From IMG/VR virus record IMGVR_UViG_3300007623_000021, positions 1-30,861 of that record: a stretch of 30,861 nucleotides of DNA, one strand, 5' to 3'. Positions 10,155 to 30,091 of this stretch are shown here, one piece after another (within the stretch, counting starts at the first letter, position 1; each line of letters opens with the position of its first letter). The translations under genes and the position numbers were made by a program. A model generated the notes under the pieces. It was not told the origin of the DNA. It was given only the letters and a program-made list of their open reading frames with translations, and searched no databases. The DNA is from a virus.

Positions 10155-12605
10155 ATGAATAATCTTGTTGTAGAATACCTGAGCACTAGGCTCGGAAAGG
10201 TTGTTCTGAATACTAATAAGAAGCAGGCCTATGGTCCACTCTATTTAGTACACCTCCTACAAGACAATGGTGAGATCTATGAGGAAGATATCGCTAAGTT
10301 AGTTAGTATAGCTACTAACATTGTACTACATAAAGCATCTAATGATCCTTCAGGGAAGAAGGGAGAAGCCTTACTCACTCATACAGCTATATCTATAGGC
10401 TTTGAGGTAGCTAACTTTAAGTCTGCTACACTGAATAAGGAACAGATGCTACACATAGGAGATCTATTCATTGAAGCCTTCTATCATGCTGGCTTCATTG
10501 AGATAGCTATCCAAGATGGTTTCGCTCCTAAGTCTGGTTCACCTTATGTTATCTCTATTAAAGATAAGTTCAGTGAGTTAGTTAAGACACAACCACCTAA
10601 GAACTTATTACTCTATACTACTGAAGAACCTATACCACCTATTAAGGGTGTGTTACAGGGTAACAACTATGCAGTAGTTAAAGGAGTTAATTCTGAGACA
10701 GCTAAACAACCACTGATTATCCATCAACAAGCATTCAAAGAGTCTATTGAAAGGAGAGATCCTTGGGTTAAGGCTGTAGATAAAGTACAACAACAACCAT
10801 GGATAATCAATAGAGAGTTATTAGAGGTTATTGAAGACAACTTAGACTCTATTCTTCCTGCTAAGAAAAAGAGATTAAATAAATATACTAAGGCTGAGAT
10901 CAATAATGCTTATAAAGCTTTACAGAAAGATCCAAGCGAAGAGAACAAGCAAGCGTATAATGAAGCTTCTGAGAGGTGGAATCAAGAACTATCCGTTCTC
11001 AGAGACATCTCAAAGAGAGCAGAGTTAGAGGCTATCTATAAGAAAGCTTCTGCTCTTAAACATGTATCTGCTTTCTATCAGTATGTAGATGTAGACTATA
11101 GAGGTCGTATCTACTACAAAGAACCTTTCTTTAACTATCAAGGTAGTGATATGGCTAAGGCTCTCTTTATGTTTGAAGAGGGTGTTAAGCTAACAGAGAA
11201 AGGATTGAGGTGGTTATACATTCATACTGCTTGTTGTTACAATGAGTCTTATGAAGCACATCAAATACCTTCATGGTGTACATATGACTATGCATCTCAT
11301 CTAGAGAGTGAAGGGTTAGACTCTATCTCAGTAGATAAGATGACACTAGAAGATAGATACCTATGGACTGTTAATAACTTAGACTTCATTAAGCTATCAG
11401 TTAACACTATCAATAACTGTGAGAAGCCTTTCTCTTTCTTAGCCTGTTGTATTGAGTTAAATAACTACTTCAATAATCCTAATCATCTGTCTCATCTACC
11501 TATACCTATAGATGGTAGCTGTAATGGCTATCAACATTCAGCGGCTATAGCTAAAGATGAGTTAACAGGTAGACTAGTATCTCTTGAGGCTACTCCTATA
11601 CCTTCTGATCTCTATGTTCAATCAGCTAAGTCTCTTATTGAGAGAGAACAAGAGTGGTTTGATAAGAGAGATATGCCAATGAAGCATATCAGGAAGTATA
11701 TTACTAAACGGGGTACTATGACTAGACAGTATTCAGCTGGTGTTGAGAAGATAGCTGATAGTATGTACTCTGATAGTTATACTGGTGAGATCACTGATAA
11801 ATATGATATAGCTATGGTAGACTGTGAACTACTCTCTAAGAGTCTAATTAAAGCTCTTGAAGAAGTATGTCCCGGAGCTACAGATACTATGTCATTCCTT
11901 CAGTCATTAGTTAACTTTGAGATAGGTAAGACTAGTGCTTATGATATAGATGGTACTAAGTGGACTCATACTAAGAAGAAGAGACTACACTCTCGTAAAC
12001 AAGCTCTTAAGCGTACTAAAGATAAGACAATAGATGAAGAGTTAGAATTAGCTCTGATAGAACAACGTCTATCTCACGTTAAGAAGACTCGTTATGTATC
12101 CTATGGTAATGGTAAGACACATATGGAATGGGTTAGCCCTTCTAACTTCCCTGTCTTCTATCACTCATACCTTACAAGAGAGTTTAATGTCTATGTTACT
12201 CTAGCAGGAGTACCTATAGGCCATAAGAAGAATGGAGAGCATACAGGACGTATTACACATGTCTTACAAGAACCTTCTCCTTATGCTTCTCTTCAGGGGC
12301 TAATGAGTGGTATTAGTCCTAACTATATTCATTCACAAGATGCTGCTCATATGGCATTAGTATTGAGTGAATGGGACTATACCTTTGGGGCTGTCCATGA
12401 TAGCTTTAGTACTCATGCTGAACATGTAGATGAACTAACTGTATTAACTAAACAGAAGTTCATTGATATGTACAGTAGTGATAACTGCTTTGTGGATATA
12501 ATGAACAATGTACTAAGCGATACTACTGGCTTTGATAGACCTCTACCGAAGTTAGGTAATCTAGACATTAACAAATTAAATGAATCAGAATACTTCTTCT
12601 GTTAG
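10155..12605 (+). CDS. Single-subunit DNA-directed RNA polymerase, T7-like
   Basis: An 816-aa enzyme (T7: 883). The motifs are DxxGR at D314-R318 (VDVDYRGRIYY); motif A D453 (PIDGSCNGYQHSAAI); motif B K514, K518, Y526 (YITKRGTMTRQYS); GISPNYIHSQDAAHM (about 719-733); and motif C H748-D749 (VHDSF). The C terminus YFFC resembles the T7 FAFA foot. Compared with T7, Arg627 is Lys and Gly640 is Ser. GGAGG precedes the start. Unlike T7, where this gene is early, it is the second-last gene of a long operon. It probably recognises the repeated sites at 622, 29526 and 29491 (inference). Confidence 0.97.
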   Translation: MNNLVVEYLSTRLGKVVLNTNKKQAYGPLYLVHLLQDNGEIYEEDIAKLVSIATNIVLHKASNDPSGKKGEALLTHTAISIGFEVANFKSATLNKEQMLHIGDLFIEAFYHAGFIEIAIQDGFAPKSGSPYVISIKDKFSELVKTQPPKNLLLYTTEEPIPPIKGVLQGNNYAVVKGVNSETAKQPLIIHQQAFKESIERRDPWVKAVDKVQQQPWIINRELLEVIEDNLDSILPAKKKRLNKYTKAEINNAYKALQKDPSEENKQAYNEASERWNQELSVLRDISKRAELEAIYKKASALKHVSAFYQYVDVDYRGRIYYKEPFFNYQGSDMAKALFMFEEGVKLTEKGLRWLYIHTACCYNESYEAHQIPSWCTYDYASHLESEGLDSISVDKMTLEDRYLWTVNNLDFIKLSVNTINNCEKPFSFLACCIELNNYFNNPNHLSHLPIPIDGSCNGYQHSAAIAKDELTGRLVSLEATPIPSDLYVQSAKSLIEREQEWFDKRDMPMKHIRKYITKRGTMTRQYSAGVEKIADSMYSDSYTGEITDKYDIAMVDCELLSKSLIKALEEVCPGATDTMSFLQSLVNFEIGKTSAYDIDGTKWTHTKKKRLHSRKQALKRTKDKTIDEELELALIEQRLSHVKKTRYVSYGNGKTHMEWVSPSNFPVFYHSYLTREFNVYVTLAGVPIGHKKNGEHTGRITHVLQEPSPYASLQGLMSGISPNYIHSQDAAHMALVLSEWDYTFGAVHDSFSTHAEHVDELTVLTKQKFIDMYSSDNCFVDIMNNVLSDTTGFDRPLPKLGNLDINKLNESEYFFC

Positions 12606-12613
12606 GAGATATC

Positions 12614-12877
12614 ATGGAAAAGAAAAGTTATAACTATATGGCATTAGCTAACAAGATGCCTGTAGATGATATGGATGTAGTAGAAGCCTTTAACCTAGAC
12701 CCTAAGGTAGCCTATACTCCTGAGATTAACAATGCTGCTTTGAATGAGGCTATGCGTAGACTAAGAGTTAACCTATTAGAAGAGGGTTATACTGAAGAGC
12801 AAGCCAACAATGAAGTAGAGCTCTATCGTAGCGGTGTGTTAGAGAATATTAATAACGCTACTAAGATGAGTCGATAA
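12614..12877 (+). CDS. Hypothetical protein, 87 aa, last gene of the + operon
   Basis: A small acidic helical protein (MEKKSYNYMALANKMPVDDM at the start), coupled closely behind the RNA polymerase with TTAGGAGAT as ribosome site. There are no cysteines or membrane segments. Its place directly after the RNA polymerase makes a polymerase-associated or regulatory role possible, but no family was recognised. A bidirectional terminator starts seven bases after its stop. Confidence 0.75.
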   Translation: MEKKSYNYMALANKMPVDDMDVVEAFNLDPKVAYTPEINNAALNEAMRRLRVNLLEEGYTEEQANNEVELYRSGVLENINNATKMSR

Positions 12878-12883
12878 ATAAAG

Positions 12884-12915
12884 ATGCCCCAAAGAGAATA
12901 ATCTCTAAGGGGCAT
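12884..12915. terminator. Bidirectional intrinsic terminator between convergent blocks
   Basis: ATGCCCC (12884-12890) pairs with GGGGCAT (12909-12915), and AGAGA (12893-12897) pairs with TCTCT (12902-12906) around the loop ATAA, with a 2x2 A/A internal mismatch. T-rich sequence follows on both sides (TCTTGTTT on +, CTTTATTT on -). It sits exactly between the convergent + operon and - late genes, so it should stop transcription from both. Confidence 0.9.
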
Positions 12916-12921
12916 TCTTGT

Positions 12922-15900
12922 TTATGAAGAGGACTTACTATTAAAGTAACCTTTACGTATAGCCTTCTGTATCTTATCCCTACCATTAGACATTCTATTC
13001 AACATCTTCTTAAGAGGGGCTACAGCACCTTTACTAACATCTAGTCTAGGTGTAAGCATTAACCCAGTTAATTTAAGGTTGATGTTAACCAATGCCTTAA
13101 AGTCTTCTGGACTAATCACTAAAGCTTTACGTCTGTTTCTTTGAACAGTAGGATCAGGATCCATATTAAATCCTAAAGAAGCTAGTTCAGTAAACTGGGG
13201 TGGAACCCTCCATCCAGCAGATTCAGCTGCCTTAAGCAAACCAATCCTGTCTTTATGGGTGTTCTCTTGATTCTCCCATATCTTCCTGTTATAGTTCTTC
13301 ATCCTTTCATTTTCTTCACTGTTCTGTAACCTAAGGGCTACCTTCTCAGCGTAATCATCTAACAAACCGAATATAGCTCTGTATTGAGAGTCAGCAGAAG
13401 TACCTACTAAGAATCCCTGTTGCTGATTCTTAGGAGCTTTCTTATTACTTTCAATAACTCTATCAGCTCTACGCTTTAAGTCATTAGACGATTGAATAGC
13501 CATATCATATAGCTGATCAAATGTATTAGACTCCATAGCGATAGCTGTCATAGCTATATTGTTGTATGCTATATTATGGAACAACCAAGAGTTAGCATTA
13601 AGAATGTTAGCATCATGGATAGGTACGTTAGGAGAAGCAGTCTTCCTTCCCATGTTCTGGGATAGAATAGCTATCTTCATTACAGTAGCATCTAGTGCAT
13701 GAGTAATCTTAGCTGAGAGAGACTGAGCAAAACCTTTACCGGGAGACTTATCATAACGAACAAACTGTTCATCTTCAACTCGTACTCTAGGTGTAGGGTT
13801 ATCTATCCTGTCTTCTCTTTCTAAGTATACCTGCTTATTCCCTTCAGCATCATAGTAGACTTCTTTATTAGGGTTACTAGCAAGCATCCCATCAGTAGCC
13901 TCTTCCATAGCTATCTGTCCAGTCATACCAGAAGGTAGTAATTCACTAACACTCATAGGTATTTCAGTACCCAAGTCATTAACGATATTAGCTCCGAACT
14001 TATTGTTCATTGCTAGTATACGACCTAAGGGTTCTACAAACCTCTGTACTGAGTGTTCAGCTAATACTTCTTCATATGTCTGACCATATACATTCTTCAT
14101 AGCATCAACAACAGCCTTATCAGAACCAAACTCTTTAACTAAGCTATCATAACCCTCTGGGTTACGTAACTTAAGCTCCATCATAAGGTCTTTAGTAGCA
14201 GCTGTATTTACTCTAGCATGTAAACCATAGAAGCCATGTACTAAGACATGTCTTGTAGAGTTCTTAATACCAACTAGATCAACTAGATCATTGAAGGCTG
14301 TTATAAGAGCTTCAGCTTTATCCTTATCATCTGCATATAACTTAATAGCAGGAGAGTGTGGACCAGTAATGTGATCTCTCATAACATCATAGAAGGAATC
14401 ATAATCACTAAAGAATAACTCTGTATCTTCAGGATCAATAGAGTAACCTAAGATGTTAGTACCCTTAGTTCCTTTCTTAATTGCTTGTAGCTGTACGTTA
14501 GAGTTGTTCTGGTCAACTTCTAGTATAGCCTCCATTGGGTAATGAGTAACAGTAGGATCAAAGTAATTAGATATATCCTGTAACTGAGATACATGGAACC
14601 CTAAGTCACCTCTCTTCAGAATAGCTTTCTGTTCCTTAGTGTACTGATCAGGTAGACGAGGCATAGACAATAAGTCTTTATTGATCTGAGCCATCCTCTG
14701 AAGCTCTTTATCTATCCTACCTTTATTAAGGGCATAGTAACGAACAAGATCAGCATCAGACATAGAGTTAAGTCTAGGTGTATATTCATTTCTAGCACCA
14801 TAGTACTTATACTTAGGTGTGAATGTACCTACCTCTTCAGCTAGTTGTAAGAACAAACGAGCAAACATAGCTGCTCTTGTCATCTCAAGGAACTTGTTCT
14901 TATCTGCTTTCTCTAGATTTCTTAACTTCTTAAGAGACTCAAATCCCTCTCTAGTTACAGTCTTACCATTAGAGTTACTACTGAATAAGATGTTATTCAA
15001 CTCATCAGCAATAGCCATCAAGTCATAGTTAGCGGCAGCTATTCTATCTTTAAAGAATGTAGGTTTCTCTGCAAAGCTCATTACAGCTCTGAGAGTAGCC
15101 TTCATCATAGACATACCATCACGACTTAACTCATGGTGACGTAGGTTTCTACCTCTACCCCACCGAACAAACCTAGGTTTACCTGCATGTTCATAATGCT
15201 CAGGGTTTGTTTCAGGGTTAGGATCAATCTGAAACTTAGATAAACGTAGGTCAACATTTAAGATAGACCAACCATGATTCCTATCTTGGTTTGTTTTCTC
15301 TTGAGCTTTAATCCTAAGTTTGTCTAGAGTATTCTTATTAAGAGGTTGATCAGAAGGAATGTTATTAATCTTTCTGTAGTGAGCTACCTCAGTATCAAAG
15401 TATTTCTTCTCTGTCTTCTTATAGTCTGTATCAGACATCTTGAAGTACTCTCTTTCGAAGCTATTCACTCCCTGTTGAAAGTCTCTCAATGCCTTATCAT
15501 ACATCTTAGCTACTAGTTCTAGACGTTCAGGAGATACTTGACGACCTACAGCGTTAAGAAGATCTTCATACAGATACTCAGGTAGAATACCTTTCTGTAG
15601 CTGGTTAGTAAGATCCTTAACTGTGTTAGGCATATCTCCAATGTTACCTGAAACATTAGAAGAAGGAGTTATAGGAGCTAATCTCTTCTGGAACTTCTCA
15701 GGATAAGCTGTTTCGAGTATAGCTTCAGCTGCTTTATAGTCCTCTCTAGCCATAGCAGAAGGATCAGTGAACTCAGCGTAATAAGTTACTGAACCTCTAG
15801 TACTAGTAGATCTATAGATACTAGCTGTACCATCATCTACCTTACTCTGTAGTACTCTGGTACCTACCATAGCGTAGTAAGGATCATCCTCACGCTTAGT

Positions 15901-16974
15901 CTCTACCCCATTCATCTTAGCCGCCATGCGACCTATCTCTGTTACCTGATTTTGTAGGGTAATAAAGTCAGCTGCCTCACCTTCATCTACTGCTCTTGAT
16001 CTAGCTTCAGATACAGAAGGGAAGGACTCACCCCTATTAAATCTACTCTCCTGAAAGCCATCTCCCCTGAAAGCCATCTCTTCAGTGTCATCAGCAATAT
16101 CTTGATTGGCTTCATTCTCACCAATACCAAACATATGGACATTACCTAAGACACCATAGGTAGCAGTATTAAGACCAATACCTAAGGCTCTAGGATTCAC
16201 TCCGGGATAGAGAGATTCTAATACTTCCTTACCACGGTACTTAGTCTCCATCTCTTGATTGGTGTCAGGGTCTACACTTCTTTCAGAGAAAATAGTTTGA
16301 TCTAATAAACCAGTAGATTCAGGAGATAAGGTATACATTAACTTATCTGAATTAACGAATAAGTCTTCAGTAGTAACAGGTGTTAACAGAGGGTTAGTAA
16401 ATTCAGGATTAATAAAACCTTCTTTAGCTCTAATACCTAACTGTTCTCTTCTCTTCTCATTAACACCTTCTTGAAAGCCTATAGGATCAGTCATATCATA
16501 ATCACTGATACTAATACCTTCAAACCTTTTCTGCCTTAACTTCTCTTCCTCAAATCTTTCTCTAGGTAGAGGTTCAGCTGGAGTGTCTGGACCAAAGGCT
16601 ACACCTCTAGGGTCATTAACCTCTAGTGCAGGGGTAGGTACATTAGTAAACTTAACCTTCTCCTCAGGAGAGAGATCACGATATACAGGTTTACCCTGTG
16701 GATCTCTCATAACCTTAGGCTTACCATTAGAACCTAATATTGGTTTACCCTGTTTATCCCTTTCAAAGACAGGTACTCTTTCTTTATTGATAAGAGGGTT
16801 AATACCTTCCAACTCTTTACGATTCTGCATATCAGCAAAGATTTGTTCAGGAGTAGGTACATCCCTCTCTGGTTCGATCATTAGGTCTAGAGGACGAGGG
16901 ACGACAACAGGTTGAACACCTTCCTCACCTACAGGGGTAGTAGTACCCGTGAACTTTCCCGGTTTTGCTCTCAT
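12922..16974 (-). CDS. Divergent single-subunit RNA polymerase in the virion cassette (putative virion RNA polymerase)
   Basis: A 1350-aa protein with, in order: WGRGR (605-609) at the T/DxxGR position; D821 in VDQNNSNVQLQAI (motif A; T7 D537 in DGSCSGIQ); K904-x3-R908-x7-YG at 916-917 (motif B; T7 R627, K631, Y639-G640, same spacing); H1092-x2-D1095 (T7 H784/D787); and H1120-D1121 in PIHDAN (motif C; T7 H811-D812). H1092 to D1121 is 29 residues, against 28 in T7. In motif B the Arg/Lys pair is exchanged. Residues 1-550 are unrelated to the T7 enzyme and proline/charge-rich at the start. The gene overlaps the 1288-aa gene by TAATG, among giant ejection-type proteins, as N4 gp50 is. Packaging in the virion is inferred. 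The alternative is an inactive structural relative. Confidence 0.75.
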   Translation of the reverse strand: MRAKPGKFTGTTTPVGEEGVQPVVVPRPLDLMIEPERDVPTPEQIFADMQNRKELEGINPLINKERVPVFERDKQGKPILGSNGKPKVMRDPQGKPVYRDLSPEEKVKFTNVPTPALEVNDPRGVAFGPDTPAEPLPRERFEEEKLRQKRFEGISISDYDMTDPIGFQEGVNEKRREQLGIRAKEGFINPEFTNPLLTPVTTEDLFVNSDKLMYTLSPESTGLLDQTIFSERSVDPDTNQEMETKYRGKEVLESLYPGVNPRALGIGLNTATYGVLGNVHMFGIGENEANQDIADDTEEMAFRGDGFQESRFNRGESFPSVSEARSRAVDEGEAADFITLQNQVTEIGRMAAKMNGVETKREDDPYYAMVGTRVLQSKVDDGTASIYRSTSTRGSVTYYAEFTDPSAMAREDYKAAEAILETAYPEKFQKRLAPITPSSNVSGNIGDMPNTVKDLTNQLQKGILPEYLYEDLLNAVGRQVSPERLELVAKMYDKALRDFQQGVNSFEREYFKMSDTDYKKTEKKYFDTEVAHYRKINNIPSDQPLNKNTLDKLRIKAQEKTNQDRNHGWSILNVDLRLSKFQIDPNPETNPEHYEHAGKPRFVRWGRGRNLRHHELSRDGMSMMKATLRAVMSFAEKPTFFKDRIAAANYDLMAIADELNNILFSSNSNGKTVTREGFESLKKLRNLEKADKNKFLEMTRAAMFARLFLQLAEEVGTFTPKYKYYGARNEYTPRLNSMSDADLVRYYALNKGRIDKELQRMAQINKDLLSMPRLPDQYTKEQKAILKRGDLGFHVSQLQDISNYFDPTVTHYPMEAILEVDQNNSNVQLQAIKKGTKGTNILGYSIDPEDTELFFSDYDSFYDVMRDHITGPHSPAIKLYADDKDKAEALITAFNDLVDLVGIKNSTRHVLVHGFYGLHARVNTAATKDLMMELKLRNPEGYDSLVKEFGSDKAVVDAMKNVYGQTYEEVLAEHSVQRFVEPLGRILAMNNKFGANIVNDLGTEIPMSVSELLPSGMTGQIAMEEATDGMLASNPNKEVYYDAEGNKQVYLEREDRIDNPTPRVRVEDEQFVRYDKSPGKGFAQSLSAKITHALDATVMKIAILSQNMGRKTASPNVPIHDANILNANSWLFHNIAYNNIAMTAIAMESNTFDQLYDMAIQSSNDLKRRADRVIESNKKAPKNQQQGFLVGTSADSQYRAIFGLLDDYAEKVALRLQNSEENERMKNYNRKIWENQENTHKDRIGLLKAAESAGWRVPPQFTELASLGFNMDPDPTVQRNRRKALVISPEDFKALVNINLKLTGLMLTPRLDVSKGAVAPLKKMLNRMSNGRDKIQKAIRKGYFNSKSSS

Positions 16975-19900
16975 TATCTGCTTCCTAATATATCATCAAT
17001 AGTTGTACCAGTCTTCTCATCAGAGAACTTACGTGAAATACTAGCTGCTATTCCACCGAATGGTATAGCCTTCTCAGCGGCTCCACTATAATCCCCTGCT
17101 ATCACTTTCTCTTTGATACCACTAAAGTTACTCAATGCAGGTATACCTAACATGTCTTCTATAGTACCACCGAACCCATAACTATCTGTTACTAGACGGT
17201 TGTATATCTCCATACCAGTACCAAATATACCTGAGTAATCTACAGCACGTTGGATATCACCATAGTCATGTAGATATGGATTAAGCTCACCATGTCTCAA
17301 TAGATCTTTAAGGTATTGGCTAAGGTAAGACATCATCAGAGCACCTGCAACTACCTTAAACGTATTAAAGGCTATAGGAGCAGCTGCTTCTGCTAGATAC
17401 TGCTTCCATATTCTAGGTAGAATGTTAGCTGTCCAATGACTAACGAAAGACATAAACATAGTAAAGAAGGGAACACCAAATCTCTTCTCTTCCATGATAG
17501 CCCATCTAGATCCCGGCTCTAATCTAACTGACATCTCATCAGTAAACTTAGGAGCTAATACATTAGCCCAGTTATCCCAAGATGCTTGGAGATCAGGACT
17601 AAGATCAGTATAGTCTAGTCCTTGAGCTTCTGCTTCTTGTAATAGCTTCATTGTGATAATAAAGTTATTTACATCATCGAAGTCAGCACCATAGAAACTT
17701 AATCTCTCATAAGCATGAGCTTGAGATTGAGTCATCTTAGAGTAATCACCATTAAGAGGGACAAGACTTAGAGCTAACTGTTCCATAGTGTACATACCTA
17801 GAGACATTCTAGTTATACGTACAGAATCGGCTAGAGGCTTGAGTAAGTTAAGCTTGAAGAACAATCTCATCATTCTATCTAAATGAGAAACTTCCATATC
17901 AGCACCCTGTTGTGCTGCTACTTCCCCCTCATTGTAACCTGAAGCGTAGTAGTTCTTCTTAGCATCACCTTCCCTTATAATCTTAAGGTCTTCAGCCATA
18001 TTAATGACAAAGCGTTTAACAAAGTCATATATGATTTTAGGTGTTTGGAACTCAGATGGTTTACCTGTTCTAGTATCTTTAACCTTAGTGCCCAAGAAAG
18101 CAAATACTGCTTCAGCTGCTTGGGCAAATAAAGCTTCATCTAGCATCTGGACAACAGCTACAGATCTAATATATCTCTCTGCTTGAGTAACAATACCTTC
18201 TTTACCTGACTGAATACGACCATAAGAGCCAGTATCCATGTCTACAAGATCAAGTAAGTCTTGAGCTAACTCAGATGCTCTCTGTTCATCTATAACACCA
18301 TCACTGTATAACTCATTAATGATGTTAGAGTAAACATTGAGGTTATCACTACCTCTGAACTTATTGTTAACAGTACGTAATGACTGACTAACAACATTGT
18401 TCATAAGTCTACTAACAGCGGTATCTGAATAGAAGTCTGGTAAAGACTCATACGCCCTTAGATCTCTAAGAGTAGGTAATACAGTACCTATCTCTCTACC
18501 CTGCATTAAGAGATTGTATAACTCTCTAGCATTAGCTTCCCCTACCTTCTCTCCCTTACGGAGTCTCCATAAGTCTGTTGGAGCCTCTATATCAGCAAGC
18601 CTCTTAACAAACTCTTCTGAGTTCTCTCTTACTTTAACAGTATCAGGAAAATTAGATCTGAAGAAGTCCTTCCAAGCATCATTTTTAACAAGATACTTGC
18701 CATTCTCTTTTCTAGCAAACCTTTCTTTATCTTTCTTAGAAGCATTAGGTATTAATTGTTTCTCTATAAACTCATTAACACGCATAATGATTTCATTAGC
18801 AACATCATACTCATCCGTAGTCAGTTGTCTAGGATCAAAGGTAGCTGAACTCATTCTATCAATAAGAGAGTTAAGATCTACATTGATAGCATTAGGAGTA
18901 GATAAAGATTTACCTTGATCATCAAGCCAAGTAAAGAATTCAGGGATAGTACCTAATAGAGATGCCTTCTGTTTATGATAGGTATTACCCTTCATGTTCT
19001 GAATAGCACCTTCAATATTCCCTAAGATAGCTGACCCCTTAATTACTTTACCGAAGGTATCCTTCAAGATAGGGAGTAAAGCTCTCTTCCTAAAATTAGT
19101 AAAGGGATTGTACTCACCTCTAGTAATTTTAGATACTCGTCTACCCATTCTACCCTGAGCTTCTTCAGCCCAATCAAAGATAGATTTACCAGTAACAGGT
19201 ACATCATACTCTTCAACTGATTCTTCTACAGATTTATTACCTGTAGCTTCCTTAGTCTGGAAAGCAGTAGCAGCAGAGTCTTTAGCTACATTAATATCAT
19301 AGTTAATATCTTGTCTTAATCCATGGTATTTAGTGTAGTCAGCTATAGAGTTAGGTAGATGATAGGAGGTACCTACAATACCACCTGCCGCACCAGCATT
19401 AGCTAGACGCCAACCGTACTTCTCCCAATCCTGAGCATTCTGAGGAACACCATTAACACCTAAGTATTGAATAGATTCCTGAGCCATCTCAGTTAAGGTT
19501 TCTCTACCACCTTGTCTTAACGCTCTATTAAGTAATGAACCTACAGCCTTCTTCTTGGAGATCATAGCTGTAGTACCTAATGCAGCTTCCTTAAGAGAGG
19601 CACCTATAACCTTCCGAGTCATACTCTCTATTAACTCTACAGCTGCATCCTCAGTGATACCATCTCGTTTAGCTATATATTTAGCAAAGTCTTTCCTACC
19701 TTCTTTGGTAAGCATATCCTTAGGATCAAATACACCCTTAGCACCAAAGACATCAAGCATAAAGATAGGGATACCTAATGCCCAAGCTAAAGCTATATCT
19801 TCCTTACCTGTAGTCTCAATGATCTCACCCTGTACACTACCTACAGACTGCATTAGAGACCATCCCTTACCTATGAGAAAGCCTATACCCCCACCTATAG

Positions 19901-20840
19901 CTGTACCTATACCGGGAGCTATAGCTGTACCTATAGCAGCACCCGCAGTAGTAGAACCAGCTAGAATAGCATAGTCTGGTCCCTGTACGATGATGTTGTT
20001 TAAAGCAAAATCAGACAGATCACCTATATCTTCTACATCCTCTAGCCCTATCACATAACCTGAAGGTGTTTCCCTCTGCATTTCATCTTGAGCTTTCTTA
20101 ACATCATCTAAAGAATCCATACCCAAAGAGACAGCAAAAGAGTTAGCATTAATCTTAAGCTGATTACCATAGTAATCTAAAGAAGTAGCTAAGGAGTTAG
20201 GGTCTTCACCTCTACCTTTAAGTAAGCCAATACCTCTAAACTCACTATCACCTAATTGAGGAGTAAACCCTTCTAATCTAGGGTCTACTAACATCTTAAA
20301 TATTTCTTCGTTCTTCTTCCACGGTTCAGCTACTTCTAAAGCATTAACAGCCCTATAATGATTACCCGCATCATAAGCAGCTTGGATGTTAGCATCCTGA
20401 AAGTTGTATCTACTAGGCTCTAATACACCTTCAGCAGTAAGAGCTAGATGAGCTTGATCCCCATACTGATTCTCAAGTACAGTGAGATCACGCCCATACT
20501 TATCTTTACCCATATCTACTGGAGTGTTATATCCAGAATCTATCTTTGACTTAACTGACTGTACATAATTACGTTCAAAGGGGTTATAGTCTAGTACCTG
20601 AACGATACCAGACTGCATATCGGCTCCACCCTTCTCATCCCTCAATATTGTAGGGGCTTCAGGTGCATCCATCCCATAGAAACGTTTACCATCTGAAAAC
20701 TCTTCCTTAGAGTAAGGAGCAGCATCAGGGTTTTTAGTGTATGAGGTATCAGCATCATATAAGACTGCTTCTTCGCCACCTATCTCTACTTCAGGCTTCT
20801 CGAAAGGTGCCATCATAGCTTGTATTTTTTCAAGATCCAT
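16974..20840 (-). CDS. Giant virion/ejection protein with N-terminal staphylococcal-nuclease-like domain
   Basis: A 1288-aa protein. Residues about 25-175 match the SNase pattern: DADT (29-32), R53-x4-D58-A-P-E61 (KRFYGMDAPE), DKYGR117, then ALTAEG (133-138) and a final W174. In staphylococcal nuclease these are DGDT, R35-x4-D40-T-P-E43 and DKYGR87, so the catalytic Arg, Glu, Arg are all kept. A Gly/Ala-rich hydrophobic stretch (about 290-326) looks membrane-inserting. The C terminus (about 1110-1200) has further hydrophobic helices. Size and place suggest a T7 gp16-like ejected core protein; T7 gp16 instead starts with a lytic transglycosylase domain. GAGGT precedes the start. Confidence 0.8.
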   Translation of the reverse strand: MDLEKIQAMMAPFEKPEVEIGGEEAVLYDADTSYTKNPDAAPYSKEEFSDGKRFYGMDAPEAPTILRDEKGGADMQSGIVQVLDYNPFERNYVQSVKSKIDSGYNTPVDMGKDKYGRDLTVLENQYGDQAHLALTAEGVLEPSRYNFQDANIQAAYDAGNHYRAVNALEVAEPWKKNEEIFKMLVDPRLEGFTPQLGDSEFRGIGLLKGRGEDPNSLATSLDYYGNQLKINANSFAVSLGMDSLDDVKKAQDEMQRETPSGYVIGLEDVEDIGDLSDFALNNIIVQGPDYAILAGSTTAGAAIGTAIAPGIGTAIGGGIGFLIGKGWSLMQSVGSVQGEIIETTGKEDIALAWALGIPIFMLDVFGAKGVFDPKDMLTKEGRKDFAKYIAKRDGITEDAAVELIESMTRKVIGASLKEAALGTTAMISKKKAVGSLLNRALRQGGRETLTEMAQESIQYLGVNGVPQNAQDWEKYGWRLANAGAAGGIVGTSYHLPNSIADYTKYHGLRQDINYDINVAKDSAATAFQTKEATGNKSVEESVEEYDVPVTGKSIFDWAEEAQGRMGRRVSKITRGEYNPFTNFRKRALLPILKDTFGKVIKGSAILGNIEGAIQNMKGNTYHKQKASLLGTIPEFFTWLDDQGKSLSTPNAINVDLNSLIDRMSSATFDPRQLTTDEYDVANEIIMRVNEFIEKQLIPNASKKDKERFARKENGKYLVKNDAWKDFFRSNFPDTVKVRENSEEFVKRLADIEAPTDLWRLRKGEKVGEANARELYNLLMQGREIGTVLPTLRDLRAYESLPDFYSDTAVSRLMNNVVSQSLRTVNNKFRGSDNLNVYSNIINELYSDGVIDEQRASELAQDLLDLVDMDTGSYGRIQSGKEGIVTQAERYIRSVAVVQMLDEALFAQAAEAVFAFLGTKVKDTRTGKPSEFQTPKIIYDFVKRFVINMAEDLKIIREGDAKKNYYASGYNEGEVAAQQGADMEVSHLDRMMRLFFKLNLLKPLADSVRITRMSLGMYTMEQLALSLVPLNGDYSKMTQSQAHAYERLSFYGADFDDVNNFIITMKLLQEAEAQGLDYTDLSPDLQASWDNWANVLAPKFTDEMSVRLEPGSRWAIMEEKRFGVPFFTMFMSFVSHWTANILPRIWKQYLAEAAAPIAFNTFKVVAGALMMSYLSQYLKDLLRHGELNPYLHDYGDIQRAVDYSGIFGTGMEIYNRLVTDSYGFGGTIEDMLGIPALSNFSGIKEKVIAGDYSGAAEKAIPFGGIAASISRKFSDEKTGTTIDDILGSR

Positions 20841-20860: not shown

Positions 20861-23665
20861 TTACAGTTTGTTAATGTGTTTGATAAGATAACGAGCGTTA
20901 ATCTTAGCTATCTCTTCAGCAGATTTACCCTTGATCTCTTTCATGTATTGATTACGTAGCTCTACCTGCCAATCTTCTAACTCCGAGGTAGTTCCATCTA
21001 ATACACTTAGACCTTGCATAATGGGGACTGAAGAGTTGTTGTATTTTTGTCCACCAGCTAGCGCAACTCTATCATTAAACCCTTTAATAGCTAATTCTAG
21101 ATCAGCAAATACAGGGTCATTAGGATCTTTTGGAAGAGCAGGTAGTCGAATGTTACCTGTATTCATATCCATAAGTCTAAGATTGGTAGCAGCAATAAAG
21201 CCGGGGAAGTTAGTTATAGGCTTATTGTATTTACCTACATACTCCGTAGCAGCCTTAACATAGTTCTCCATCATGGCTTGCCCTTCAGCACTAGTCAAAT
21301 AGTACAAGGCCGCTTCTTCATTTCCATTAAAGAGTTTCTTAGCATTACTCATTGCAGCTATCTTAAGGCTATTGTAGTTAACCTTATTGCCAGACAAAGT
21401 ATTAGCTGTTCGGGTATCTCCATCTGTCGTTGTGACAGTAGTTCTAATACCAAAGTCTTCAATCGCCTTATCCCACTGTGATTGAAGATGGTTTTGGAGA
21501 CTTTCTCTACTGTGTCTCTTATCATCTTTAGATTCAGATGCACCAGTAGGGATAACAATCAACTCATTCTTATTGGTACGACCTATAAAGCCCATACTAC
21601 CTACATACCCATTAATCTGAGTCATAGGTTGTAAGACTCTGCCATCAGGCATATGATAAGCTTTAGTTAATACATGAGTCTCTGTTCTATTACCAATGTT
21701 AGTAGCGCCAAAAGCTCTAGCAGCCCTATTAAACTGTTGAGGAGAAGCTACCTTTTGACCTATCTCAAATGTTTCTCCTTCAGCAGAAGCCTGAGCAGGA
21801 GTAGAAACTACAGCCTCACCAGTAGATGTCTTTACAGATTTAGTTGGAGCACCACCTGTAGCAGTACCTGTACCATCTACAGTAGTAGGAGGAGTACCAC
21901 CAGTACCTACAGTAGGAGCAGTAACAGTACCACCACCTCTAGTTAACTGTTCAAAGTAAGGAGAAGCAGACATAGCTTGTTGATAAGCTTGAGGCCAAGT
22001 CATATAGGTACCATCACCATATATGTCAGTAGCATTCTTAACTATATCATCATAGATCTTCTGATTGAGTTTATCTCTATCTAAACCTACTCTCTGAGCA
22101 TCCATGCCTAAATTAGCATTAGCGATCTGTGCTTTGAGACTCTGTTCAGCATCGAATCTGGTATTGCGACCAGTCTCTTTCATAGTCTCTCTAGCATCAA
22201 GACGATTTTGCGTGTATTCTTCTTCTCTCATCTTGAGAAGAGACTCTTGCTGTTTAGCCTTAGCTTGAGCAGCTGCCTTATCTCTAGCTGCAAGAGTACC
22301 TACATACTGCTTACCAGACCATCTGATAGAGTCACCATGATTGTATCCCAAAGCTCTAGAACCAAGATAAAGAACAGCAGACTTAGCTAATAGACCAGAG
22401 TCAATGACACCTGAGTCAAGCATAGCTGTAGCAGAATCATCTAATACTTTCCCAAAGAAACCTAAAGGATCTTTAGCTGCTCCTGAGAAATACTGTTTAA
22501 TTCTACCCCAAGCAGAAGGATCTTTCTTTATTTCCTCTTGGCCTTTGAGATAAGCTTCTCTAGCCTCTTTACTCTTCCACGGAGCATAGTTAACATCAGG
22601 ATCTTTAGGTGGAGTATTAGGGTTAAGTAGAGAATCAGTAAATGCTGTCAATTCTTCATTAACATTAGCTTCAACTTCTTTCCCATTCTGCATAATAGGC
22701 TTTTGAGTCTTAGCATCAATAACAGCAGGTTTACCCTTAGCTGTACCATTTTTCTTGACTAAAGGTTTTTTACCTGTAGCAGGAACAGGAGGTGTATTAG
22801 TAACAGGAGGGACTTCATCTCTCCTCCATACATTACCTCTACCACCTAACACTGCAGGAGTACCTGTCATAGTCTGGATATCATCAGGAGTAGCTGTCTT
22901 CAGATACTCATCCATCCTCTGTCTTTCTCTTACAGCTCTTTGTTCTTCAGTCATAACAGGAGAACCTGTCATAGCTTCTACATCAGAAGGAGTAGCCGTA
23001 GAAAGATAGTCATCCATTAGGTTTCTGTTATTAACAGCAGTAGCCTCACCTACAGACATTCTAGGCGGTACAGGATTACCTGTCATAGTCCTAATGTCTT
23101 GAGGTGTAGCTGTAGAAAGATAATCATCCATCATCTCTTTTTGATTTACAGCAGCTATCTCTCCTTGACTCATAGGCTGATTACCCATAGTACTAGGATT
23201 ACCAGTCATACCAATGATATCAATAAGAGGCGCACCCTTAAGCCGCTGATCCATTAACTGCCTAGCTCTAACAGCATCGTACTCTTTTTTATTTAATCGA
23301 GCAAGTGCTTCTATAGCTGCAAGAGGGATTTCACCACCATACTGCATAGGAGGTACTTGACCGCCCGGAGCTTTATACAGGGGTTTAACACAGCCACCAC
23401 CAGCAACATACTGAGGGATAGTGCCTCCCTGTTGAGCTTGTACTGCTTGCCCCTTATTATTCATAGCCTCTATCTGAGGTTTAAACATACGAGTAGCTTC
23501 AGCATTCATTACAAACTCACCGGGAGTTAACCATGCAGGTACCGTATCAGTACCCACAGGTTGTCCGGGATGTTGAGGTACTTCATTCATAGGAGGTACA
23601 TCAAACTCAAAAGACATCATATTACCATACCTGTCTTTCTGAGTGTACTTCTTTATGTTGTTCAT
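20861..23665 (-). CDS. Giant virion protein, 934 aa, with DTVPAWLTPGEFV motif and MTGNP repeats
   Basis: The N terminus contains GTDTVPAWLTPGEFVMN (38-54), a motif known from phage tape-measure and internal proteins (D-VPA-L-PGEFV). Residues 131-270 hold four imperfect repeats of 34-41 aa, each ending in MTG(N/S/T)P preceded by DDYLSTATP-like text. A Gly-rich segment (GGGCVKPLYKAPGGQ) and a coiled-coil-like region (about 450-530) follow, then a low-complexity Gly/Thr/Pro linker (about 575-620). The C-terminal 300 residues are a globular domain that I do not recognise. AAGGA precedes the start. It is probably an ejected inner-core or tape-measure-like protein. Confidence 0.7.
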   Translation of the reverse strand: MNNIKKYTQKDRYGNMMSFEFDVPPMNEVPQHPGQPVGTDTVPAWLTPGEFVMNAEATRMFKPQIEAMNNKGQAVQAQQGGTIPQYVAGGGCVKPLYKAPGGQVPPMQYGGEIPLAAIEALARLNKKEYDAVRARQLMDQRLKGAPLIDIIGMTGNPSTMGNQPMSQGEIAAVNQKEMMDDYLSTATPQDIRTMTGNPVPPRMSVGEATAVNNRNLMDDYLSTATPSDVEAMTGSPVMTEEQRAVRERQRMDEYLKTATPDDIQTMTGTPAVLGGRGNVWRRDEVPPVTNTPPVPATGKKPLVKKNGTAKGKPAVIDAKTQKPIMQNGKEVEANVNEELTAFTDSLLNPNTPPKDPDVNYAPWKSKEAREAYLKGQEEIKKDPSAWGRIKQYFSGAAKDPLGFFGKVLDDSATAMLDSGVIDSGLLAKSAVLYLGSRALGYNHGDSIRWSGKQYVGTLAARDKAAAQAKAKQQESLLKMREEEYTQNRLDARETMKETGRNTRFDAEQSLKAQIANANLGMDAQRVGLDRDKLNQKIYDDIVKNATDIYGDGTYMTWPQAYQQAMSASPYFEQLTRGGGTVTAPTVGTGGTPPTTVDGTGTATGGAPTKSVKTSTGEAVVSTPAQASAEGETFEIGQKVASPQQFNRAARAFGATNIGNRTETHVLTKAYHMPDGRVLQPMTQINGYVGSMGFIGRTNKNELIVIPTGASESKDDKRHSRESLQNHLQSQWDKAIEDFGIRTTVTTTDGDTRTANTLSGNKVNYNSLKIAAMSNAKKLFNGNEEAALYYLTSAEGQAMMENYVKAATEYVGKYNKPITNFPGFIAATNLRLMDMNTGNIRLPALPKDPNDPVFADLELAIKGFNDRVALAGGQKYNNSSVPIMQGLSVLDGTTSELEDWQVELRNQYMKEIKGKSAEEIAKINARYLIKHINKL
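22856..23275 (-). repeat. Four imperfect MTGNP protein repeats
   Basis: Within the 934-aa protein the segment MTG(N/S/T)P recurs at residues 153, 194, 233 and 267, preceded each time by a variant of (M)DDYLSTATP and followed by a helical stretch. The DNA copies have diverged, so this is an old protein repeat under selection rather than a recent tandem expansion. Confidence 0.75.
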
Positions 23666-23746: not shown

Positions 23747-26700
23747 TTAAACTACTTCACCGTTCTCACGAATAAACTTAGTATCTCCACCTAGAACATC
23801 AAAGACTTTCATCCAGAAATTCTTAATAGGAGTGAAAATAACGCCATGTTTATTTTTACCGTAGTAATACTTACCATAGGACACTAAGGGGTCAGCAAAG
23901 GTTTTCTGAACAACCCATTTAAATACCTTAGACTTACGCATCAACGGGACTAATACTTCAGCTAGTTTGTAATAGCCTCTTTTATTACGCTCTGTCATGT
24001 ACTCATCACGGTATCGTCTTACTACTTCATCCATAGTACCATTACCGTAACGAGCCTCTAACATAATAAAGCAACAGCCACCACCCGAACTAGAGCTTGA
24101 ACTTGAATCACTAGAGTATGCATCAATTACATTTTGATCACTAGTAAATTTACTAACATCAAATGCATCACCTGTAGTAGAAGAGTAATCTTGACCATAA
24201 GAGTAAGATTCACTATCACTACCATAGTTAACTGAACCACCGCTATCAACTACAGGAACAGCCATTGCTGTGTCTTCACTAGCAACTAGTCCCGGAGTTT
24301 GAGAGGCATTTATTGAACTAATATAGTTATCTACTATAGCTTTAGCTTCAGCTGGATCACCTGTAGCATTAGCGGCTGCTAATCCTGCTTCTTCTTCAGC
24401 GGTAAGTTCTCTACCTAACTGACTAGTGGCGTAATTGGTTGCTACTTCAGGATCATAAGCCAACTTAGTAGCCGTTTCAGTATCAGTCTCTTCTGGAGCA
24501 GGTGCTGGAGCAGGTGCTGGAGCAGGTGCTGGAGCAGGTGCTGGACTACTACTAGTACTCTTACTAGTTTCGTTAGCTATCTCTTCAGCTATAGCCTGAT
24601 CTAGCTCATCCACTGTTACACCACCACCAGTAGAACCAACATCTCCCCAATCGGTATTACCTTGATCTACTAAAGCGTCACCTGCAGTTACTTCTACTTC
24701 CAATGGGTCTGGTTCGAAATCAGGATACTGATTGTAGAGCTCTTCCATTTTAGCGTTATACTCAGTACCAGTAATATCTCCTGTTATAAGTTGATTATGG
24801 TAAAGAGTTAGCTGTTCCACGAAAGATAAAGTAGTAGGATCAATAATCTCTACAGTCAGAGGTTTAGTATAACCTTCAGTAGTAGGATCAGCAGGGTCAT
24901 AGTAGCCATACTTAGTAGCTAACTCTATATGTCCGGCATTATATTCCGCCTCACCTATCTCTCCTGCAGCATAAGCATCATCTAAAGATTTAGCTTCTGA
25001 CAGATAACCTACAGTGTTTGATGTGGCATAACTAGTATCATCGATATCACCAGAAGTATATAAAGCATTTAGAGCATCTATTTCATCAGTAAGTGTATTA
25101 GCACTTTCTACAATCTGCTCATATTCATCATAACCGATATTACCAGAAGCGATCTCATCTAACATTAACTGATAGTCGATATCACCATCACTAGTATTAA
25201 TATCTTCTACAATATTAGTATACTCATCATAGGTAATATTACCTTTGTTTACTTCGTCTAACGCTTGATTGTAAAGATTAGAGTTAACTACTGAATCATT
25301 GATAGAATCTACAGCATCATTAACTGTCTGGGTTAACTGCTCTTGAGTAACACCCTCAGGTATAGTAATGTTATTTAAGATATCTTCTTTGAGTTGATCT
25401 AAATCATTAGTAGTTAACGCACCATCACCGATAGCAGTTTTAATATTAGTTTCTAAATTAACTAGATCAGATTCAGTAAGAGTAGTCTGAGGTAGCCCTG
25501 CAATAGCATCAAGAATACCAGTCTCTAATGCAGTTACGTCAGCTGAAGTTAAATCGTAAGCATCAGTGATAGCACCCTTAAGTGACTCTTCTAAATCACC
25601 TATAGTAGAATCTAATGACTCATTGAGCTTAGTCAAATCTTCAGCAGTGAGCTCATAGGTATCAGAAATAGTCTTTATAATACTATCTTTGATATCAGTT
25701 AAATCTTGAGTGGTTAACTCAGACTTATTAGTTAGAGCATCAGTTAAGTCTTTAGTAATACCTTCTAACTGTTCTGTAGTAAGATCATAATTATCATTGA
25801 TAGTCTTAGTTAGACTCTCTTCAATGTTAGTTATGTCTTGAGCAGTAACATCATAAGTATCAGAGATAGTGCCTTCAAGAGAGGTCTGAAGATTACCTAA
25901 GGATACACCTAAAGACTCTTCTAGATCAGCAAGATCATTGGCTGTTAGATCATAAGTATCACTAATAGAAGTAATAATACTTTCTTTAATAGCAGTAAGA
26001 TCATCTGTAGTAAGTTCAGACTTATCTGCTAAGATATCACTTATATTCTTTTCTATGCCTGCTAGATCATCAGCGGTTAGGTCATAAGAATCACTAATAC
26101 CAGTTAGAATGTCTTCTCTGGCTCCAGCTAACCCTTCTCCTAGATCAGCTACACTCTCTCCTACACCACCTACTGCTTCACCTACACCAGCAATAGCATC
26201 AGATACATTCTTCTCTAATGTAGCTATTTCTTCTGCTGTTAATTCTTGAGAAGTAGCTATACTATCAACTAAGTCCTGCCCTAACTTATTTAACTGTTCT
26301 GTATTAAGATCAGCATTAGTGTTAAGTGTGTCAATAATAGTGTTGAAATTATCTTGTAGGGCTATTTCTCTTTCTAACTCAGCAGCTGCATCAACGTGCT
26401 CTTGCATAGAACGAGCATCGGTGAAGCCCATTGCATTAGCTTCTTCAACAGTGTATTGTCCCGGACCAGTACCTACCTCAATAGTTTGTCCTTCAGGGTT
26501 AGTCCATACATTATATACGGAGTCTGCTCTAGTAAGACCTGATCTCCAATCAAGCCCCTCAAAGATCTTATCTATCTCAGCAAACTGTTCATCTGAACCT
26601 ATACCAAATTCAGCTACAGCTTTAGCTTCATCAAAATTACCAAAGGCATCTGAACCAAAGCCTTCATTTGCTCCAATATTAACAGCCATATCAAAGAGAG

Positions 26701-27517
26701 CATCAGCCTGAGACTGAGTAACTACTCTCGTATTACCATTAACATCACTTACAACTGTTAGAGGTTCATCATAGTAGTTAGCGGCTGTAGCTTCCCCTGC
26801 TTCGCCTGCATTGAGGACATCAAAAGACGCATCTAAGTTATCTATACGATTGTCTAGTATAGTTCCACCTAGCGCATTAGCAATAAGGCCTCCCGGCATC
26901 CAAGCAGGATAGTTAAGTAAACCAAATCCTAAGTCTTCAGTCCACTGCCCCCATAATCCTTGCCCTCCCGGAAGGTTATGAGAGTAACCGCCAGCAGTAC
27001 CCATACCAAAAGGATCACTGCCTGTGGCATATGTCCAACCGCCTCCAGGATATCCACCGCCATCGCCACTCGATCCTCCATTTACAGAGGGAGCAGAAGG
27101 AGACGCAACAGGAGAATCAATAGGAGAATCAATAGGAGATCCAACAGGAGGAATAATAGTGCCTCCTCCTATTCCCGGAGTAATAGGAGTAGTAGGAGCA
27201 ATAGGACTAAAATAGTCATCTCCTACAAGAGGACGAAAACCAAAGTCACCTAATCCTTCAATAGCACTATTATCTCTACCCGAACCATCGTTAACATAAC
27301 CCATAGCATCATAACTAGGAGTAGCGTAACGCGGTGGTGCATCCATTACCTGAGGAACTTGAGGGGCTGAACTAAATGAACCACCATCTTGTTGAGGTGA
27401 TTCTGCTTGCTGGTCTACAGCTCCTGTAACCCCTTGAGCAGGTGCTGGAGTCTGATTACCCATGTATCTATTACCATACTTGGGTACATACACATAGTTC
27501 GGGTTAAAGTTTGGCAT
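23747..27517 (-). CDS. Giant repeat-rich virion protein, 1256 aa, with CFI-box-like C terminus
   Basis: The order is as follows. A Pro/Gly/Ser-rich N terminus (about 1-200) includes SPIDSPIDSPV. A globular part follows (about 200-390). Then come helical repeats built around (S/N)D(S/T/N)YDLT--DL--IE (about 395-740), five SHOCT-like G-x-I-x3-EY units (about 750-935), an Ala-Pro tract (PAPAPAPAP, about 1000), a Ser/Gly linker, and a cysteine-led C-terminal domain from residue 1145 (GGGCCFIMLEARYGNGTMDE). The last resembles the CFI-box C-terminal domain (CFI, YG, VVRRYRDE, YY). It is acidic overall. The gene follows three small virion genes with AAGGA upstream. It is a likely fibrous or ejected structural protein. 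Confidence 0.65.
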   Translation of the reverse strand: MPNFNPNYVYVPKYGNRYMGNQTPAPAQGVTGAVDQQAESPQQDGGSFSSAPQVPQVMDAPPRYATPSYDAMGYVNDGSGRDNSAIEGLGDFGFRPLVGDDYFSPIAPTTPITPGIGGGTIIPPVGSPIDSPIDSPVASPSAPSVNGGSSGDGGGYPGGGWTYATGSDPFGMGTAGGYSHNLPGGQGLWGQWTEDLGFGLLNYPAWMPGGLIANALGGTILDNRIDNLDASFDVLNAGEAGEATAANYYDEPLTVVSDVNGNTRVVTQSQADALFDMAVNIGANEGFGSDAFGNFDEAKAVAEFGIGSDEQFAEIDKIFEGLDWRSGLTRADSVYNVWTNPEGQTIEVGTGPGQYTVEEANAMGFTDARSMQEHVDAAAELEREIALQDNFNTIIDTLNTNADLNTEQLNKLGQDLVDSIATSQELTAEEIATLEKNVSDAIAGVGEAVGGVGESVADLGEGLAGAREDILTGISDSYDLTADDLAGIEKNISDILADKSELTTDDLTAIKESIITSISDTYDLTANDLADLEESLGVSLGNLQTSLEGTISDTYDVTAQDITNIEESLTKTINDNYDLTTEQLEGITKDLTDALTNKSELTTQDLTDIKDSIIKTISDTYELTAEDLTKLNESLDSTIGDLEESLKGAITDAYDLTSADVTALETGILDAIAGLPQTTLTESDLVNLETNIKTAIGDGALTTNDLDQLKEDILNNITIPEGVTQEQLTQTVNDAVDSINDSVVNSNLYNQALDEVNKGNITYDEYTNIVEDINTSDGDIDYQLMLDEIASGNIGYDEYEQIVESANTLTDEIDALNALYTSGDIDDTSYATSNTVGYLSEAKSLDDAYAAGEIGEAEYNAGHIELATKYGYYDPADPTTEGYTKPLTVEIIDPTTLSFVEQLTLYHNQLITGDITGTEYNAKMEELYNQYPDFEPDPLEVEVTAGDALVDQGNTDWGDVGSTGGGVTVDELDQAIAEEIANETSKSTSSSPAPAPAPAPAPAPAPAPEETDTETATKLAYDPEVATNYATSQLGRELTAEEEAGLAAANATGDPAEAKAIVDNYISSINASQTPGLVASEDTAMAVPVVDSGGSVNYGSDSESYSYGQDYSSTTGDAFDVSKFTSDQNVIDAYSSDSSSSSSSGGGCCFIMLEARYGNGTMDEVVRRYRDEYMTERNKRGYYKLAEVLVPLMRKSKVFKWVVQKTFADPLVSYGKYYYGKNKHGVIFTPIKNFWMKVFDVLGGDTKFIRENGEVV
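24495..24542 (-). repeat. Four exact 12-bp tandem repeats (Ala-Pro tract)
   Basis: GGAGCAGGTGCT occurs four times in a row on the + strand, encoding an alternating Pro-Ala linker in the - strand gene. Exact copies suggest recent slippage expansion, so the length may vary between isolates. A smaller 12-bp repeat near 27110-27140 encodes SPID units. Confidence 0.9.
24720..25262 (-). repeat. Five SHOCT-like protein repeats
   Basis: The motifs GNITYDEY, GNIGYDEY, GDIDDTSY, GEIGEAEY and GDITGTEY recur in the 1256-aa protein, each with a preceding leucine-rich helix. This matches the pattern of SHOCT domains (L-x-L--G-I-t-eEy). SHOCT domains are usually single and C-terminal; here they form an internal array. 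Confidence 0.55.
25300..26335 (-). repeat. Helical protein repeats around YDLT/ELTT-DL motifs
   Basis: Roughly a dozen imperfect units of about 24-36 residues, such as DTYDLTANDLADLEESL, DTYELTAEDLTKLNESL and NKSELTTQDLTDIKDSI, occupy residues about 395-740 of the 1256-aa protein. The regular L/I spacing implies an extended helical or coiled-coil rod. The DNA copies are diverged. Confidence 0.8.
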
Positions 27518-29560: not shown

Positions 29561-29625
29561 TTAGATATATTATTAATATATTAATTATTAATAATATATT
29601 AAAGATATACTTTAAAGTATATTAA
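29561..29625. other. AT-rich palindromic tract (candidate replication origin)
   Basis: An almost pure A/T stretch. It holds a perfect 14-bp inverted repeat (29565-29578 and 29586-29599, seven-base spacer) and then a perfect 18-bp palindrome (29605-29622, ATATACTTTAAAGTATAT) that overlaps the end of the endolysin gene. Two TTAAGGG direct repeats follow at 29622-29628 and 29634-29640. A phage promoter running into an AT-rich segment is the layout of the T7 primary origin. A terminator role is less likely because the stems contain almost no G or C. Confidence 0.45.
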
Positions 29626-30091
29626 GGGATACCTTAAGGGTCTCTATAGTCCTTTTAGTCCATCCCTTACCATAGATGTTAAAGTTAACTAAAGATGTAT
29701 AATACTCTAGTCTTCTTAAAGTGTACCTAGTAGCTAATTCTTTATCATCTTTCTTTCTTACCTCACCAAGAGTTATATCTCCTATGATACCATCTCTCTT
29801 AGTCCCTACTACTTCTTGTAACATCTTTATAGCTCTTCTTACTCCAGCATTTACTGCCATATCAAAGACTACTAATGCTACACTAGGTGGTAAGTTATCT
29901 CCCTTAACCCTATCCCAATAGTCTTCCTTATATATCTTCTTAGCTTCTTCTTCACTAAGCTTACTGATATCTAAGTCAGGATAAGCCTTCTTAGAGATTC
30001 CATAGTTAGTCTCTCCTCCCGGATCTCTTGGATCATTGACATACCCTCCTTCATGCTTAAGAATTAATTGTACACAACGATCATAAGACAT
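29612..30091 (-). CDS. Endolysin, glycoside hydrolase family 108
   Basis: A 159-aa muramidase. HEGGYVNDPRDPGGETNYGI (residues 13-32) is the GH108 signature, with the catalytic Glu in the EGGY segment. The C-terminal part has the usual peptidoglycan-binding fold (DGIIGDITL, about 118-126). There is no signal peptide or transmembrane segment, so release depends on the holin-like protein encoded just upstream. GGAG lies before the start. The last codons overlap an 18-bp palindrome. Confidence 0.93.
   Translation of the reverse strand: MSYDRCVQLILKHEGGYVNDPRDPGGETNYGISKKAYPDLDISKLSEEEAKKIYKEDYWDRVKGDNLPPSVALVVFDMAVNAGVRRAIKMLQEVVGTKRDGIIGDITLGEVRKKDDKELATRYTLRRLEYYTSLVNFNIYGKGWTKRTIETLKVSLNIL

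Follow-up and report, generated by a model that had tools for sequence, protein, structure and literature searches.

A putative virion-delivered single-subunit RNA polymerase encoded opposite a T7-like enzyme in CRP-7-type podoviruses

Two convergent polymerase genes in a marine phage

The IMG/VR virus record IMGVR_UViG_3300007623_000021, whose entire 30.9-kb length (30,861 nucleotides, referred to here as the window) was analysed, derives from a phage described as marine and encodes two proteins of interest for transcription: P0001, an ordinary T7-like RNA polymerase, and P0002, a divergent polymerase-like protein of 1350 amino acids (aa). A first-pass annotation made from the sequence alone had proposed that P0002 is a further single-subunit RNA polymerase, highly divergent and encoded among the virion and ejection genes, and this proposal is now supported by conservation among homologs and by the confident predicted fold of one of them. 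Both open reading frames (ORFs) are real, and that of P0002, for which no strand had been given, lies on the minus strand.

Rightward genes in the window encode the replication proteins (DNA polymerase, ribonucleotide reductase, and primase-helicase), followed by P0001 and then by one small ORF. The large virion-type proteins form a leftward operon that opposes the replication genes and has P0002 as its final gene, and the P0001 and P0002 genes are convergent. The hairpin between them is likely a terminator common to both operons. The stop codon of the gene upstream of P0002 overlaps the P0002 start as TAATG; the 1288-aa product of this neighbor has a weak virion-structural match and a sub-threshold glycine zipper match in Pfam and PHROGs scans. 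The main features of the region are as follows.

10155 to 12605, plus strand: P0001, one-chain T7-like RNA polymerase, 816 aa, 11 cysteines, Pfam RNA_pol match at E=2e-54
12884 to 12915, no strand: hairpin between the converging operons, ATGCCCC...GGGGCAT with inner AGAGA...TCTCT, as read from the sequence
12922 to 16974, minus strand: P0002, putative virion single-subunit RNA polymerase gene, 1350 aa, ATG start, no internal stops, no cysteines
16974 to 20840, minus strand: presumed ejection or internal virion protein, 1288 aa, no cysteines, Gly-zipper-like segment
20861 to 30369, minus strand: remainder of the leftward late operon, with structural-type proteins and an endolysin (GH108)

A family of P0002 homologs

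P0002 alone had no relevant match in Pfam, PHROGs, NCBIfam, PDB sequences (phmmer), or 50,697 phage records (tblastn). Relatives were instead reached through the neighboring P0001, by taking the genes at the equivalent place in the genomes that it matched. P0001 matched contigs at 66-100% identity and Roseobacter phage CRP-7 at 38%, and the genes at the P0002 place were homologous in locus L006 (29% identity) and in CRP-7 (gp33). Iterated searches based on hidden Markov models (HMMs) and alignments gathered ~70 homologous ORFs; overlapping loci account for some of these, and the set reduced to 31 non-redundant sequences at 88% identity. P0002 was placed in this family by iterated HMM, and CRP-7 gp33 connects both ends of the family through direct matches.

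The family spans dozens of uncultured phages and a single cultured one. CRP-7 gp33 (MK613349, QBQ72826.1) was the sole homolog found in a cultured phage, by tblastn from a distant member; it is annotated "hypothetical," and its gene is convergent with that of the T7-like RNA polymerase gp30. The description of CRP-7 recognised only ORF30 as an RNA polymerase and makes no mention of proteomics (PMC6918029). No relative was found in the bacterial genome contigs searched, and the family profiles gave no relevant match to PDB sequences (hmmsearch). No description of the family was found in the open-access papers searched, a set that excludes the bulk of the subscription literature and of bioRxiv.

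Full-length members are 1,197-1,393 aa long. Conserved blast matches start at about residue 362 of P0002, and full-length members carry N-terminal prefixes of ~270-340 aa. The corresponding part of P0002 (residues 1-359; 15898 to 16974, minus strand) is poorly conserved, lies outside the modelled polymerase, and is a candidate packaging or ejection region. Of the 20 family genomes checked, 19 contain exactly one Pfam-detectable T7-like RNA polymerase, made as one chain, and by contig coordinates it faces the P0002 homolog in those genomes. The remaining genome is a contig of 48.7 kb, possibly a fragment.

Catalytic motifs are conserved at low overall identity

P0002 contains the motif residues D821-x6-Q828, K904/R908/Y916-G917, H1092/D1095, and H1120-D1121. 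All of the motifs listed in the first-pass annotation are present, and the comparison with related phages that it had suggested separates those that are conserved from those that are not. Among homologs at 17-29% identity, D821, Y916 (19/19), D1095, and H1120-D1121 never vary, and every member covering motif B has K or R at position 908. G917 is replaced by S in a few members, and Q828, K904, and H1092 vary, with Q in place of H1092 in most. WGRGR (residues 605-609), which had also been offered as a motif, is confined to the window and absent from other members; three residues further on lies the invariant R612, in the context N-x-R-x(12)-K-x3-R. From its alignment R612 is likely the equivalent of the DxxGR/TxxGR arginine (T7 R425), the literal motif being absent from the family. 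The positions of these elements are given below, with their counterparts in the model of homolog L034 described in the next section.

13540 to 15177, minus strand: polymerase core, residues ~600-1145, containing all catalytic motifs, from alignments, the homolog model, and Foldseek
15139 to 15141, minus strand: R612, invariant in the family alignment, corresponding to R221 of the L034 model
14512 to 14514, minus strand: D821, predicted catalytic Asp of motif A, invariant in 19/19, corresponding to D413
14227 to 14253, minus strand: motif B, from R908 (K in most relatives) to Y916, then G917; R908 and Y916 correspond to K492 and Y500
13690 to 13692, minus strand: D1095, aligned with T7 VHSQD, invariant in 20/20
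13612 to 13617, minus strand: H1120-D1121, predicted catalytic HD of motif C, invariant in 20/20, corresponding to H714-D715

Motif A reads DGNQNG in most relatives, compared with DGSCSG in T7 and DGVTNG in N4, and motif B in distant members reads K-x-PLM-x3-YG, compared with KNPLTITIYG in N4. Motif C is VHDA or VHDS in most relatives, and hhalign sets the family PIQSTDG...VHDS on T7 VHSQDG...IHDS, in register at motif C, in an alignment that is not significant alone. The ordered and spaced motif pattern arose in 1 of 20,000 shuffles of P0002, and a relaxed version in 5 of 20,000. Because this pattern was written post hoc, conservation among homologs is the real test. The Pfam RNA_pol profile (PF00940) fell below detection against P0002 and the family; this is not a firm exclusion, since hhalign also fails to align the profile of the N4 virion RNA polymerase (vRNAP) to T7.

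The predicted fold of a homolog is that of an RNA polymerase

An AlphaFold2 model was built for homolog L034, from residue 302 to the end, using a 30-sequence alignment that included P0002 (mean predicted local distance difference test score, pLDDT, 89.0; predicted template modelling score 0.87). In Foldseek searches all of the best 50 PDB matches of this model were yeast or human mitochondrial or T7 RNA polymerases, the best at E=8e-12. The viral library BFVD gave 46 matches at E<=1e-3, among which every clearly named polymerase was an RNA polymerase; N4-type virion polymerases were among the BFVD matches, with the phi50-12 enzyme at rank 2, and DNA polymerases entered only from E=1.5e-3. D413 lies on strand 410-414, K492 in helix 486-499 with Y500 just past it, and H714-D715 at the turn of hairpin 710-719. 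This placement on a strand, a long helix, and a hairpin turn is the arrangement expected for motifs A, B, and C.

P0002 is like T7 RNA polymerase and P0001 in its catalytic motifs and predicted fold. P0001 differs from it in being Cys-rich, in lying in the replication module, and in matching Pfam RNA_pol, whereas P0002 lies in the virion module without matches. Taking the conserved motifs and the homolog model together, we regard it as almost certain that P0002 is an RNA polymerase of the single-subunit (T7-type) superfamily.

Probable association of P0002 with the virion

P0002 contains no cysteine, against ~22 expected at the rate of the early genes (P ~2e-10). The same is true of the 3,500 aa of N4 vRNAP and of the 1288-aa neighbor, while P0001 has 11; most of the 31 family members are also Cys-free, with a maximum of three. 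Comparison with loci L006 and L009 showed that sampled replication proteins are 58-89% identical, whereas P0002 is 29% identical or missed by blastp and its 1288-aa neighbor is 32% or 24% identical. This contrast suggests that the P0002 gene evolves with the ejection module. At L009 the gene at the P0002 place (12867 to 16607, minus strand) was recognised only by a sensitive HMM (E ~1e-8), with the aligned D, K-x7-YG, and HD kept, whereas its T7-like RNA polymerase is 68% identical to P0001, pointing to much more rapid divergence or exchange of the virion polymerase than of the replication genes.

The indirect basis on which we infer that P0002 is packaged and injected is its place at the end of the late operon, its translational coupling to a presumed ejection gene through the TAATG overlap, the lack of Cys, the divergence with its module, and a position matching that of N4 gp50. 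We put the probability that P0002 is a virion-delivered, active early polymerase at roughly 0.8. The mechanism that we propose is modelled on N4 (PMC4496689): P0002 would be synthesised late together with the ejection proteins, incorporated into the virion, and enter the cell with the first DNA to be ejected. There it would transcribe early genes independently of host RNA polymerase, and the early products would include P0001, which would take over transcription of the later genes. Catalytic activity, packaging, ejection, and the role in early transcription should all be read as predictions.

Candidate regulatory elements were noted in CRP-7 (MK613349; loci L124 and L015). A near-identical element, TATAGTCCC[C/T]TATTAAAAGG, recurs in three non-coding regions, at positions 2030 (plus strand), 38276 (minus), and 57226 (minus), and may be a promoter used by one of the polymerases. 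A non-coding stretch of the early region (1436 to 1626; L124) contains many ACCTTG-type repeats and is a possible origin or promoter array.

Points against a virion-delivered early polymerase, and alternative explanations

Several observations weigh against the proposed role of P0002 or the assignment behind it. N4-style hairpins (stem of at least 6 bp, 3-nt loop) numbered 6 in CRP-7 against 4.6 expected, with 0 in the early region, although N4 stems can be shorter. The fold model is that of homolog L034 and not of P0002 itself. In the AlphaFold and Foldseek check suggested in the first-pass annotation, L034 resembled T7, mitochondrial, and N4-type RNA polymerases, and a single-sequence AlphaFold2 model of P0002 was uninformative (pLDDT 36). 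Foldseek TM-scores of the L034 model were modest (mostly 0.37-0.46 by query, in multi-domain alignments). Neither the T7 nor the N4 RNA polymerase profile aligned significantly to the family profile in hhalign, a result that is uninformative because the T7-N4 positive control failed too. Lastly, R stands in place of T7 K631 in the clades of the window and CRP-7, which also lack the glycines of motif A (DG replaced by DQ, DA, or DS).

These last substitutions are what might be seen if P0002 were an ejection protein that retained a polymerase fold but had lost catalytic activity in these two clades. We consider this very unlikely, since D821, Y916-G917, D1095, and HD persist among sequences of 17-29% identity, the K to R change preserves charge, and the changes are common to whole clades instead of being scattered as in decay. 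A chance motif match in an unrelated structural protein would be in keeping with the failure of any family model to match P0002, and has a negligible probability given the rarity of the pattern among shuffles, the invariance of the residues among homologs, and the confident polymerase fold of L034. Five homologs gave weak, sub-threshold matches over motif C to Pfam DNA_pol_A (E 0.001-0.02), which raised the possibility of a family-A DNA polymerase-like enzyme. This reading was rejected as highly improbable on fold and motif A: the family has a DGxxxG-type motif A, which differs from the family-A DNA polymerase type, and in Foldseek RNA polymerases matched at E ~1e-12 versus at least 1.5e-3 for DNA polymerases, a gap of about nine orders of magnitude.

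The possibility that P0002 is a real single-subunit RNA polymerase that is made late, left unpackaged, and active in the infected cell (for example at late promoters or in primer synthesis) is unlikely, though less so than the preceding three. It would be compatible with the conserved catalytic residues and with a gene within the late operon. P0002 however has 0 Cys to the 11 of the cytoplasmic T7-like polymerase, and it diverges with the ejection module and not with the replication module. A T7-like RNA polymerase is moreover already encoded in 19/20 genomes, and the P0002 gene stands in the place of N4's injected polymerase. We therefore favor delivery of P0002 in the virion.

Comparison with N4 and other phages with virion polymerases

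N4 gp50 (Schitoviridae; PHROG 2206) is like P0002 in belonging to the single-subunit superfamily, in being Cys-free, in its similar motifs A and B, in having a T7-type polymerase partner, and in being encoded by the last gene of a leftward late operon that opposes a rightward early operon. Neither P0002 nor its family matched the virion RNA polymerase PHROG 2206, and no sequence homology was detectable. N4 vRNAP has a three-domain architecture of 3,500 aa, in which the N-terminal domain is membrane-linked and the C-terminal one regulatory (PMC12633501), in contrast to the 1,197-1,393 aa of the P0002 family, and P0002 is about a third of its size.

The first-pass annotation had suggested that an injected polymerase combined with an ordinary T7-like one was undescribed, which is too strong. 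N4 injects its single-subunit vRNAP and also makes its own T7-type RNAPII (PMC4496689), so the pairing in the P0002 family is not unprecedented. N4 RNAPII is however a two-chain enzyme, and the partner in the P0002 family is one chain; in a survey, species with an N4-type virion polymerase had heterodimeric RNAPII except for two, in which the gp16-like part is itself split (PMC4496689). What is new here is the P0002 family itself, the compactness of its members, and a partner that is not split.

Packaged polymerases that are injected to read early genes, as proposed for P0002, are known from crAss-like, jumbo, and P23-45 phages, and P23-45 has a second, non-virion polymerase too (PMC10770324, PMC7598289). 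The jumbo-phage and P23-45 virion polymerases are related to cellular RNA polymerases, whereas P0002 is T7-type. Putative vRNAPs of StenR_269 and Zobellviridae are, like P0002, large Cys-free late-operon proteins, and were proposed in 2023 solely on size, lack of Cys, and helical content (PMC10747016). The Zobellviridae proteins of SIO1, VpV262, and ICP2 were considered as family members and rejected, having no significant family-HMM match and lacking the motif set.

The window had also been described as belonging to a T7-like podovirus. A podovirus of the CRP-7 type, with opposed early and late operons, is a better description than a plain T7-like one. The CRP-7 portal (49611 to 51845, minus strand; L015) falls in the N4-portal PHROG (1216), and its major capsid protein and terminase large subunit fall in different PHROGs; no portal, major capsid protein, or terminase large subunit gene was seen in the window contig. 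This sharing of the portal PHROG, without the capsid and terminase, makes a mosaic or a distant common origin with Schitoviridae possible, and P0002-type phages may be a sister lineage of that family.

Other features of the window and of CRP-7

Within the leftward late operon of the window, a 1256-aa protein (23747 to 27517, minus strand) has many degenerate internal repeats (DLTADDLxxLE-like) and a non-repetitive C-terminal part. Four diverged 82-nt direct repeats with a spacing of 102-123 nt (22855 to 23275, minus strand) occur within the gene of a 934-aa structural protein, and the GH108-type endolysin (29612 to 30091, minus strand) has a peptidoglycan-binding domain. In CRP-7 an adenosylcobalamin-dependent ribonucleotide reductase (35552 to 38170; L015) sits among the structural genes and is annotated as two pieces, gp44 and gp46, with the small gp45 between them; an intron or homing gene may interrupt it.

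Implications for early transcription in marine podoviruses

N4 and its relatives are known to inject single-subunit polymerases, and a P0002 family with the same apparent job would widen the range of this strategy. We think it probable that the family forms, outside Schitoviridae, an independent second lineage of such injected RNA polymerases, with members roughly one-third the size of the N4 enzyme and a T7-like partner that is unsplit. A gene now annotated only as hypothetical would gain a name, and a family that is compact enough for its structure to be predicted confidently and that has a culturable marine member would offer a smaller system for studying the passage of a polymerase through the phage tail and its refolding. 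If the proposed role is true, widespread uncultured podoviruses would carry out host-independent early transcription by means of an enzyme missed by all family models tested here, which bears on how transcription starts without host RNA polymerase in phages of slow-growing ocean bacteria.

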